64,000 nt of DNA, taken from positions 3,782,001 through 3,846,000 of the forward strand of contig NZ_AP024600.1 in NCBI RefSeq assembly GCF_036322585.1, read 5' to 3'. Shown here piece after piece: positions 29,289 to 34,260 of the stretch. The DNA is from Luteolibacter sp. LG18. GTDB lineage: Bacteria; Verrucomicrobiota; Verrucomicrobiia; Verrucomicrobiales; Akkermansiaceae. How positions within the stretch are numbered: the first letter of the stretch is position 1; every line of letters starts with the position of its first letter. The notes beneath the pieces were generated by a model that was not told the origin of the DNA, ran no database searches, and saw nothing but the letters and a program-made list of their open reading frames with translations. The position numbers and the translations under genes are program-made.

Positions 29289-29373
29289 TGGTGCCGGGAA
29301 CAGGACTCGAACCTGCACGCCTTGCGGCTCCTGATCCTAAGTCAGGCGCGTCTACCAATTTCGCCATCCCGGC
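29289..29373 (-). tRNA. tRNA-Leu (anticodon TAG)
   Basis: On the minus strand the gene runs from GCCGGGA at 29373 to an encoded CCA at 29291-29289. It has the long variable arm of a class II tRNA (AGCCGCAAGGCGT), an anticodon stem CCTGA/TCAGG and the loop CTTAGGA, giving anticodon TAG. The T arm is CAGG-TTCGAGT-CCTG. All stems pair properly. Confidence 0.95.
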
Positions 29374-29811: not shown

Positions 29812-29887
29812 TGGTGGAGCATAGCGGGTTCGAACCGCTGACCTCCTGCATGCCATGCAGGCGCTCTACCAACTGAGCTAATGCCCC
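29812..29887 (-). tRNA. tRNA-Ala (anticodon GGC), copy 1
   Basis: A complete 76-nt tRNA with encoded CCA at 29814-29812. The acceptor stem is GGGGCAT/ATGCTCC with the G3-U70 pair that marks alanine tRNAs. The anticodon stem is CCTGC/GCAGG with loop ATGGCAT, anticodon GGC. It is identical to the copy 66 bases upstream. Confidence 0.96.
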
Positions 29888-29953
29888 ATAAGATATCGGG
29901 GCCCTTCTTTCACGGGATCCACCCTGACTTCCAAAACGATCGGAAGGAAAGGA

Positions 29954-30029
29954 TGGTGGAGCATAGCGGGTTCGAACCGCTGACCTCCTGCATGCCATGC
30001 AGGCGCTCTACCAACTGAGCTAATGCCCC
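29954..30029 (-). tRNA. tRNA-Ala (anticodon GGC), copy 2
   Basis: Identical in sequence to the tRNA at 29812-29887, with the same G3-U70 pair and encoded CCA (29956-29954). The two copies are head-to-tail on the minus strand. The bases after each 3' end are also similar (CGGAAGGGAAGGG versus CGGAAGGAAAGGA read on the plus strand), so the duplication unit includes flanking DNA. Confidence 0.96.
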
Positions 30030-31738: not shown

Positions 31739-32449
31739 ATGCAAAAGATCGCATTGGAGGCGGTGCGCAGGTGGACGGTGTTTGAGGAGTATCATGTGCC
31801 GCAGGTGATCCGGCAGCGGTGCTCGCATTGCCCGGAGCGCACCTCCTTCGATTGTTCTTCCTGGGCGAAGGCGGGAGACCACTCCTGTCTCGTTGGCGTG
31901 ATGGCCTGCAATGCCTGCGGTCATCACGCGAAGGTATTCGTGATGGATCCCCACGACAAGGAGGCGGCTTATGCCGGGGCGGGGGAGATCCATTGCACGA
32001 TGGTGCTGTCGTCGAAGGATGATCCGAAGGAGTATCCGAACGCGCCGGCGCCAGTCCAGCGGGCCTATCATGACGGTGTGGATTGCCTGAACAGCGGGCT
32101 TTATTCCCCGGGCTCGGCCTCGTTCCGGCGCTTGCTGGAAGGGATTTGCCGGATGCCTTCGAAGTCATCGGATTCCGTGCGTCATCTCGCGGCTCAGATC
32201 GAGCACCTAGCGGAGCTCGACGAGTTCCGCCAGCCTTTGAAGAACCTGGCTCATTCGTTGCGGTTCGCCGGCAGCCTGGGGCCGCATTTCGATTCGGATG
32301 GCGAGCCCACCGGGGAGGCTTGCGGGTTGATCCGCCAGCTCTCGGAGCACCTGCTCGATTACTTCTACCGCATTCCCGCGTTGTCCGCGGCGCTGCTGGA
32401 GCTCGGAAAGAAAGAGGCGGAGGAAGTGCGGACTCCGATCCGAGCGTGA
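31739..32449 (+). CDS. DUF4145-like domain protein with N-terminal zinc ribbon
   Basis: 236 cytoplasmic residues. An N-terminal zinc ribbon is formed by C-x2-C in RCSHCPERTSFDC and a second C-x2-C in ACNACGHH. The C-terminal ~140 residues are helical and resemble the DUF4145 domain, which is common in restriction and other defence-associated proteins but also free-standing: APVQRAYHDGVDCLNSGLYS, FRRLLEGICR, LAAQIEHLAEL, and LIRQLSEHLLDYFYRIP. No restriction or methylase gene is nearby. It follows the DUF2239 gene by 11 bases and may share its operator-controlled promoter. Function is unknown. Confidence 0.65.
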   Translation: MQKIALEAVRRWTVFEEYHVPQVIRQRCSHCPERTSFDCSSWAKAGDHSCLVGVMACNACGHHAKVFVMDPHDKEAAYAGAGEIHCTMVLSSKDDPKEYPNAPAPVQRAYHDGVDCLNSGLYSPGSASFRRLLEGICRMPSKSSDSVRHLAAQIEHLAELDEFRQPLKNLAHSLRFAGSLGPHFDSDGEPTGEACGLIRQLSEHLLDYFYRIPALSAALLELGKKEAEEVRTPIRA

Positions 32450-32480
32450 GAGAGGTGGATTCCTCTATCTGCCGTGATCG

Positions 32481-32509
32481 TTGGTGTTTGTTCTAATGAA
32501 CAGTATTTT
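32481..32509 (+). promoter_or_regulatory. LexA (SOS) box within a promoter
   Basis: TGTTC-TAAT-GAACA at 32489-32502 is an exact match to the LexA-binding consensus established for Verrucomicrobia (TGTTC-N4-GAACA). It lies in the spacer between TTGGTG (32481-32486) and TATTTT (32504-32509), which are 17 bases apart. This is the position expected for repression. The downstream gene is the ribbon-helix-helix protein, whose start is 73 bases past the -10. Confidence 0.72.
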
Positions 32510-32581
32510 GCTTGCCCGGAAGGAGGGGAATGGATACTTCCTCTCTTCACAAACTACACGGTTCTAAAGTATCCATCGGCC

Positions 32582-32929
32582 ATGTCAGGGTTCTCACGGG
32601 TCTCTCTCTACATTTCGAATGATGAAAAACGCATCCTGGATGCGACGGCGTCGCGGCTGGGGATTTCGCGTTCCGAGGTGATCCGGCATCTGGCGCTGTA
32701 TCACGGTCTGTGCGGGGGAGACTTTCCGCTCACTGCTCGCATCTTGGCCCTGCCGGTGAAGGATCGGGAGCGGGTCATCCAGGAGATCCGCGAGCGCGCC
32801 GAATCCGGGGACCCCGCCAAGCCGCAGTCTTTCCGCCAGTGGGTGAAGGAGACGGTCGGCAACGACGATTCCGAATCGATCGAAAAGGGCGCGGAATCGC
32901 TGCTGCGGAAGCTGCTGAATGGGGCGTGA
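32582..32929 (+). CDS. Ribbon-helix-helix (CopG/MetJ-like) DNA-binding protein behind a LexA box
   Basis: 115 residues. The N-terminus FSRVSLYISNDEKRILDATASR followed by LGISRSEVIRHLA is a ribbon-helix-helix fold: a short strand with alternating residues that contacts DNA, then two helices joined by a turn. The C-terminal ~60 residues are charged and helical, with VKDRERVIQEIRERAESGD and a W (FRQWVKETVG), likely for oligomerisation or partner binding. I chose the ATG at 32582 because the upstream in-frame stretch contains the promoter. A 10-bp inverted repeat ATGGATACTT/AAGTATCCAT (32530-32539 and 32567-32576) lies in the leader just before the start and could be an autoregulatory operator. 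The protein may be an antitoxin-like or stand-alone repressor. No toxin gene is adjacent. Confidence 0.75.
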   Translation: MSGFSRVSLYISNDEKRILDATASRLGISRSEVIRHLALYHGLCGGDFPLTARILALPVKDRERVIQEIRERAESGDPAKPQSFRQWVKETVGNDDSESIEKGAESLLRKLLNGA

Positions 32930-32955
32930 GGGCCGGATGGGAAGAGTGGTAATCG

Positions 32956-33090
32956 AGGAGTGGCGGATTTCGATCCGCCATGCTGGGGAGGAGTTGCATC
33001 GCCTCGCGGCTACCGGACGCTGGAAGGCTCCGTGTGTGAGGAAGCGAAGAGGGACTTTAGGGACATGGCTCCTCGAAAGGAGCCACTCCT
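32956..33090. repeat. Inverted pair of REP-like hairpins (family 2)
   Basis: AGGAG-TGGCGGAT-TTCG-ATCCGCCA-TG (from 32956, perfect 8-bp stem) recurs in opposite orientation at 33066-33090 as AGGAG-TGGCTCCT-TTCG-AGGAGCCA-TG read on the minus strand. The flanks AGGAG and ATG, the TGGC/GCCA base and the TTCG tetraloop are conserved while the inner stem differs. That is the signature of a mobile REP family with compensatory changes. The pair fills the gap between two convergent genes. Confidence 0.65.
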
Positions 33091-33108
33091 TGAGGCGGGA
33101 GCCCCGCG

Positions 33109-34260
33109 TTACTCTCCAAGGGCCAGTCTGGCGGCGGCGCGGGCACGGGCCGCTTCGTCGGCCACCTCGTTCACCGAAAGCTCCAGCACATGGAACCGCG
33201 CGCCGAGGTGGGCGGGGTGGACAAGGGTCTGGAATTGGCGGATCGCTGCCGGGTCCGGGTGTTGCTCAAGATGGCGGAGCCAGGTGCCCGCCTGCCGGGT
33301 CAGCCAGCTTCCCTGGTCACGGAAATCGGTCGGGACGATCCCAAGGGAAAGGGCGGCCTCGGCCACGGCGGTGAAGTCGACATGGGCGGTGATGTCGCGC
33401 TCGCCGGGCGAATCCAGCGGATCATCACCGGCGCGATGCCGGGTGAAGGTCCGCAGCGTGCCGGCGGTGCGCTCCGGAAGCAGATATTCCGGGCGGGCGA
33501 ATCCGTAGTCGATCCACAGCATCAGGCCGCGTTCCAAGGTGGGAGCAAGGGAGGCGAGCAGGTCCCGGTAGCCGGTGCGGGTTTCGGTACGATACCCAGA
33601 GGGTAGCGGCACCGACGGCTGAGGAGATGGTCCGTCCCAGCGGATGTTGAAATTCCATTGGAAATGACCGTTTGATGCATCAATCCGGCCCTCCCACCAA
33701 AAGGCTTCCCGCCATTCCAAGACGTGGCAGGGCAGGGCATCGAGGAGTTCGTTTCCGAAAATGATGCCGGGCAGGGGGGCGAGCTCCGCGGGAGAGGCGA
33801 CGGATTGAAAGCGGTCTCCGTAATCGGAAAGGCGCTCGGTCTGTGCAGCGGCGAGCGACGGCAGTTGCTCCAGAATGGCGTAGGTCAGTCCCGCGAAGGC
33901 GGTCGGGGAGGAGGCGGCGAGGGTTTCGAGGATGTCCCGTGCCAGCGTGCCATCATGAGCCCCCATTTCCAGGATCCGCCAGCGGGCGGGTTCCCCGGCT
34001 CCGGTCCACCAATCGGCGAAACGCCGGGCAAGGAGCTGGCCGAAGGCCGGGCCGACGCTCACGCTGGTGAAGAAATCCCCCTTTCGCCCCACTTGGCGGG
34101 TTCCGCGGGCGTAGTAGCCGCGGGTGGGGTCGTAGAGGGCGGCGGCCATGAAGCGGTCGAACGGCATCGGGCCGTGGCGGGCAATCTCCGCCGCGAGGTC
34201 ATCCGCCAAAGTGGGGGTTGCCGAGCTTCCGGGGGCCGGGTATGGATTGGGGACGGTCAC
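33109..34260 (-). CDS. SAM-dependent methyltransferase, MidA/NDUFAF7 family
   Basis: 383 residues starting with GTG. The family signature is clear: FDRFMAAALYDPTRGYYA, then GRKGDFFTSVSVGPAFGQLLA, a SAM-binding segment RILEMGAHDGTLARDIL, YAILEQLPSL, and GIIFGNELLDALPCHVLEW. MidA proteins are Rossmann-fold methyltransferases. The human homologue NDUFAF7 dimethylates an arginine of a complex I subunit; the bacterial substrate is not firmly known. The glycine-rich loop reads EMGAHDGTL rather than the commoner ExGxGxG, a substitution seen in this family. It is divergent from the PBP gene with only 36 bases between the starts, so the two promoters must overlap. Confidence 0.9.
   Translation of the reverse strand: MTVPNPYPAPGSSATPTLADDLAAEIARHGPMPFDRFMAAALYDPTRGYYARGTRQVGRKGDFFTSVSVGPAFGQLLARRFADWWTGAGEPARWRILEMGAHDGTLARDILETLAASSPTAFAGLTYAILEQLPSLAAAQTERLSDYGDRFQSVASPAELAPLPGIIFGNELLDALPCHVLEWREAFWWEGRIDASNGHFQWNFNIRWDGPSPQPSVPLPSGYRTETRTGYRDLLASLAPTLERGLMLWIDYGFARPEYLLPERTAGTLRTFTRHRAGDDPLDSPGERDITAHVDFTAVAEAALSLGIVPTDFRDQGSWLTRQAGTWLRHLEQHPDPAAIRQFQTLVHPAHLGARFHVLELSVNEVADEAARARAAARLALGE

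Follow-up and report, generated by a model that had tools for sequence, protein, structure and literature searches.

A predicted LexA-controlled ribbon-helix-helix gene of likely phage origin in Luteolibacter sp. LG18

We analysed a 64,000-nt stretch of the genome of Luteolibacter sp. LG18 (contig NZ_AP024600.1, positions 3,782,001 to 3,846,000), referred to as the window, with attention to a small ribbon-helix-helix (RHH) gene and the DNA around it. The features of the locus, in window positions, are as follows.

29289–29373, minus strand: tRNA-Leu(TAG) gene, one side of the junction discussed below
31739–32449, plus strand: gene for a DUF4145 protein, upstream of the RHH gene; found only in this genome (G000) and G082 among 73 genus genomes (E <= 1e-10)
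32489–32502, plus strand: predicted LexA box TGTTC-TAAT-GAACA (TGTTCTAATGAACA), starting 93 bp 5' of the RHH start codon
32503–32518, plus strand: GTATTTTGCTTGCCCG, a possible -35 region, picked out by eye as resembling recA promoters, e.g., TCTTTTTGGCTTG
32530–32539 and 32567–32576, no strand assigned: 10-bp inverted repeat ATGGATACTT-N27-AAGTATCCAT, arms exact, left arm unconserved
32582–32929, plus strand: RHH protein gene (ATG at 32582, 115 aa), with an N-terminal RHH_1 domain (Pfam) and a conserved C-terminal module
33109–34260, minus strand: Methyltransf_28 gene, which borders the junction opposite the tRNA

The protein scored 25.2 bits against the Pfam RHH_1 model (cut-off 20.5), which bears out the earlier description of the downstream gene as encoding a ribbon-helix-helix protein. 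A single-chain structure model contained helices only and was of low confidence (mean pLDDT 62.5). Profiles for a mobilization protein of the NikA/MobC type remained below cut-off (NikA-like, 19.9 bits vs. 27; MbpA, 17.4 vs. 90). A short ORF (32530–32622, 30 codons) began with an ATG at 32530 behind a strong ribosome-site-like sequence and overlapped the RHH start. This ATG was dismissed as the true start of the RHH gene, being out of frame with it and opening so short an ORF.

Conservation of the protein was assessed at two levels. Between the window and its orthologue in G082, the RHH protein was 91% identical with a dN/dS of 0.073 (90 synonymous sites), compared with 66–76% identity and a dN/dS of 0.137–0.277 for four neighbouring genes, the ends of which are approximate. 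Judged by these rates, the RHH gene is kept under purifying selection. A residue-conservation profile was drawn up from nine copies of full length, leaving out the incomplete G137b row. Within the RHH domain, mean pairwise identity was lowest (42%) in the beta strand expected to read DNA; no stretch was as constant as GLCGGDFPLT (89%), and the C-terminal module reached 64%. A variable beta strand combined with a constant GLCGGDFPLT stretch and C-terminal module fits changing DNA targets and a kept interaction surface, so the family may have shifted its targets while retaining that surface. A search for a shared RHH operator between the RHH promoters and nearby DNA yielded nothing consistent.

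MazE9 chains showed weak profile similarity (E 0.0033), and a VapB model scored 17.9 bits, far below its cut-off of 60; these matches could hint at an SOS-controlled RHH antitoxin of a toxin–antitoxin pair, or at another stress antitoxin. We consider this very unlikely: the gene has no conserved co-directional partner, the two ORFs after it match G082 only antisense to Methyltransf_28, and the genes downstream differ among homologues (integrase, exonuclease, YbjQ-type).

The LexA box proposed in the sequence-only reading was found exactly as described, at 32489–32502, and among the 14 matches to TGTTC-N4-GAACA listed for the window it was the sole site with fewer than two mismatches. Background models built from the window gave 0.02–0.08 exact matches per 64 kb, the range depending on the model, and the earlier figure of about 0.06 was therefore about right. 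In the whole 5.8-Mb genome, six exact matches were found vs. two to seven expected by chance, with none for a reversed-pattern control; with one mismatch, there were 68 places vs. 20 for the reversed control. As chance alone predicts as many exact matches per genome as were seen, an exact match is weak evidence by itself, and we rejected the motif count as proof of LexA control. We judged the box to be non-chance from its conservation and from the genes at which such boxes sit, rather than from their number.

The six exact boxes in the genome were located at recA, an splB-like gene (a PA0069-type radical SAM gene), lexA, imuA/imuB, the RHH gene and one intergenic gap. The LexA, RecA and PA0069 proteins of this genome exceeded their NCBIfam cut-offs, whereas the labels imuA, imuB and ssb are presumptive, having been assigned by reading the sequences without a family search. 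The intergenic box, at genome position 4368687 (L004:1501-1514), had a PRC-barrel gene on one side and a sensor-kinase-like gene on the other. We then surveyed seven genomes, namely G000 and six relatives carrying the RHH family, and in all seven the motif was present upstream of both lexA and recA. Exact boxes numbered 43, of which seven preceded RHH family genes and 31 preceded SOS-type genes: recA (7), lexA (7), imuA (6), splB-like (4), ssb (4), and another radical SAM gene (3; this label has a Pfam basis for one of the three). Of the remaining five, four had no assigned gene and one lay at the 5' end of a ParB-methylase gene from a phage.

A few boxes outside these groups are of separate interest. 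A gene for a ParB_N–DNA methylase fusion had an exact box, the second of its phage, at its 5' end in two related phages (L044:13590-13603 and L093:1501-1514), the proteins being 78% identical; as the box overlaps a possible GTG start, it could sit inside the coding sequence. In G108 (L100:1467-1480), an exact box lay ~14 bp ahead of an ATG; the gene concerned scored above cut-off for a Whirly domain and is possibly a new SOS gene. Another exact box, in G082 (L115:1502-1515), was found ~45 bp ahead of a short ORF (~46 aa) that matched nothing in Pfam, and one on contig 21 of G108 (L098:1527-1540) was 38 kb from the second RHH copy of that genome.

Homologues of the RHH gene were sparse. The family was present in 7 of 195 family, 4 of 73 genus, 6 of 386 order, and 2 of 384 class genomes, as well as in two IMG/VR contigs that were identical to each other over the 6.6 kb compared. 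For the order and the class, the genomes were sampled, and these sets overlap the others. Plasmid and phage records contained no homologue at E 0.01, and of two further queries for viral homologues, one had no matches and one returned only the same IMG/VR contigs. Removing repeat entries of any one locus left ten distinct copies, among which G000/G082 and G036/G141 are close, non-independent pairs.

All ten copies had the box upstream, in answer to whether it is conserved at RHH orthologues: seven had an exact box within 200 bp, one (G137a) an exact box at -598, and two a box with one mismatch (G036 at -153 and G141 at -130). Among 13,312 dyads scored in the ten 200-bp upstream regions, the LexA dyad ranked first, with exact matches in seven of the ten regions, compared with a maximum of one in 12 sets obtained by simple shuffling of bases. 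Across the ten boxes, nine of the ten fixed positions were invariant and the first was T in eight, and all four spacer positions varied. That the box match is due to chance and the gene outside LexA control is extremely improbable: the genome-wide chance expectation would allow it, as would the promoter search described below, but the box accompanies every distinct homologue with drifting spacers, and most exact boxes in the seven genomes sit at SOS-type genes.

Given a box kept in ten homologues and the same motif at lexA and recA, a LexA-controlled DNA-binding protein is a fair reading. The gene is predicted to be LexA-controlled, which the sequences support well, and we infer that LexA binds at 32489–32502. 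The earlier proposal of a LexA-run DNA-binding regulator thus stands in its core, and two of its details do not. The first is the placement of the box between -35 and -10 elements. The DNA directly 3' of the box resembles the recA promoters of these genomes by eye, but a search for a sigma-70-like consensus promoter in 32380–33200 was empty, leaving that placement unproven, and by eye it is not conserved among homologues. The second is the reading of the 10-bp inverted repeat before the start codon as a second operator or RNA hairpin. The repeat is present with exact arms; however, it is among 23 such 10-bp hits (raw count, with some overlap) that the window has at a loop of up to 40, and its left arm is not kept, by eye, in the 91%-identical G082 orthologue. 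The operator or hairpin was rejected as unconserved, and the repeat is probably incidental. The pair did not recur elsewhere in the genome within three mismatches.

Next, we considered the surroundings of the other copies. Leaving aside G000 and G082, eight copies remain, and six of these had phage-type genes nearby, with an integrase in three of the six. The IMG/VR contig encoded an integrase, a RecE-like exonuclease, a major head protein and a tape measure protein near the RHH gene; box, RHH gene and integrase followed in a row, and the RHH gene and integrase ORF overlapped by four bases. In G108, the copy on contig 6 (G108a) lay end to end with an integrase and had a RecE-like gene nearby, and the copy on contig 21 (G108b) was accompanied by a helicase–methylase gene and an exonuclease. 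The G114 locus had an integrase one gene from the RHH gene, the ParB-methylase gene, and further genes in the same order as in the IMG/VR phage (by eye). A terminase small subunit was present in G141 and a replication-type gene near the RHH gene in G036. The phage setting is less certain for the two G137 copies, which lie on short contigs without an integrase match. Only the G114 integrase met the Pfam cut-off (58.9 bits); those of the IMG/VR phage (19.1) and G108a (25.4) were below it and clear in PHROGs. No att repeats were found at G114, where the far prophage end lies beyond the contig.

Four loci had HTH_3-type or Arc-like genes beside the box or one gene off: an HTH gene adjacent to the box in G137b (below the Pfam cut-off) and one gene away in G108a (above it), and weak Arc-like matches (E 0.009 and 0.0004) in G108b and G137a. 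Most of these repressor-like matches are thus weak. A LexA/S24-type peptidase was absent from the nine loci searched with a profile from six LexA sequences, which a distant S24 protein could escape. The predicted LexA box precedes the RHH gene inside prophage-type loci, and the window copy lies outside any recognisable prophage. The sequence-only reading missed what is likely a phage origin of the gene.

Proximity to integrases raises the alternative that the RHH protein acts as an excisionase (recombination directionality factor) that, once released from LexA, binds att and steers the integrase to excise the prophage, with the window copy as a relic or re-used. The four-base overlap in one phage and the adjacent or near-adjacent integrases of G108a and G114 suit such a role. 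We nevertheless regard it as rather unlikely. Queries with the three phage integrases found nothing in the G108b, G036 and G141 stretches; the early regions of G114 and G108b contain small genes with weak, below-cut-off similarity to HTH_17, a type often found in excisionases; and excision alone would hardly account for purifying selection on a solitary copy.

The window copy itself sits at an altered junction. Among 18 genomes of the genus that lack the RHH gene, seven had the Methyltransf_28 match 43–462 bp from tRNA-Leu(TAG), whereas the corresponding distances for the window and G082 were ~3.7 kb and 4 kb; in the other 11 loci, no tRNA-Leu was found within up to 1.5 kb. Any tRNA was absent from three (G098, G170 and G182) of six longer stretches around Methyltransf_28. 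The window interval comprised two tRNA-Ala genes, an M28-like gene (our own assignment), DUF2239, DUF4145 and the RHH gene; G082 had the same protein order and one tRNA-Ala. The two tRNA-Ala(GGC) genes of the window (29812–30029) lie beside tRNA-Leu(TAG) in this lengthened junction. RHH, DUF4145 and DUF2239 genes were absent beside Methyltransf_28 in the other 29 loci, and neither these nor the M28-like gene occurred in the six longer stretches. As the DUF4145 gene occurs in no other of the 73 genus genomes than G000 and G082, it may have arrived with the RHH gene; the tRNA-Ala, M28-like and DUF2239 genes need not be phage.

These observations suggest, without proof, that the altered junction is a decayed phage insertion. 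In G114, ~60 bp separate the start of the integrase ORF from a tRNA-Leu(TAG), and the ORF is on the same side of the tRNA. Near the window gene no integrase was found, the closest Pfam match in the genome being >200 kb away; the three phage integrases had no match in the window, and no att repeat was detected at its junction. Since the short junction is not universal among same-genus loci, a plain rearrangement is possible.

Its shared place in two species and low dN/dS could also mean that the RHH gene was originally a host SOS gene captured by phages. This is improbable, as only 4 of 73 genus genomes carry the gene and two of these (G036 and G141) have it elsewhere, with no Methyltransf_28 gene within 18 kb. 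In addition, on a midpoint-rooted tree the solitary copies nested among phage copies, grouping with the IMG/VR copy with moderate support (93/91), and the gene occupies a tRNA junction of which several relatives have a short version.

The phage-type neighbours and the position in a tRNA-Leu junction that several relatives have in short form together indicate that the circuit probably began as a prophage switch. We thus favour, with a probability of roughly 0.7, the reading that LexA represses a phage-derived RHH regulator of prophage induction or excision that is now a solitary SOS gene in the window. LexA bound to TGTTC-N4-GAACA upstream would keep the RHH gene off, and DNA damage, through RecA-stimulated cleavage of LexA, would free it. 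In a prophage, the RHH protein, encoded near integrase or repressor-like genes, would most likely bind phage control DNA and tip the switch to induction and excision. The window copy would have outlived its phage and would act in trans on host or phage DNA. More tentatively, it may be a domesticated phage SOS-switch gene, tied to LexA as before by its phage promoter and serving as a host second-tier SOS regulator or as a trans switch over other prophages, a step we hold to be possible though somewhat doubtful.

The locus provides a candidate for a prophage switch run by LexA with an RHH protein at its core, and a case in which such a gene remains under selection once the phage has apparently been lost. 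It suggests a route by which host SOS networks gain regulators from phages, and predicts that the RHH transcript rises with recA after DNA damage. A verrucomicrobial SOS regulon with the motif TGTTC-N4-GAACA was reportedly described by Erill et al. 2016, and we observed this motif at the lexA, recA, imuA, splB-like, ssb and radical SAM genes. The literature searched showed no such switch in the phylum and no LexA-controlled RHH gene or phage target in Verrucomicrobia, although the main motif paper may contain one.

Arc/Mnt and CopG-type proteins are phage and plasmid RHH repressors. The protein described here shares with them an RHH_1 domain and a phage control region, and differs in ~70 extra C-terminal residues, conserved across homologues, and in its predicted LexA control.

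LexA-controlled antirepressors, as presented in PMC3121763, include Tum of phage 186, AntC of N15, and GfoA and GftA of the Gifsy prophages, where the lysogenic repressor is not cleaved. We liken the RHH gene to these without claiming membership: it too is a small phage gene under (here predicted) LexA repression and, as in Gifsy, no self-cleaving peptidase was found near it in the nine loci. Unlike the antirepressors as described there, it has an RHH DNA-binding product, relatives in Verrucomicrobia and, in the window, a copy without a phage. Host LexA is used directly by phages GIL01 (PMC4551915) and CTX (PMC3121763), and in the proposed circuit host LexA would likewise be part of the lysogeny switch. 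In GIL01 and CTX, LexA acts on a lysogenic promoter or repressor gene, whereas here its predicted target is the RHH gene, which in some phages lies beside the integrase.
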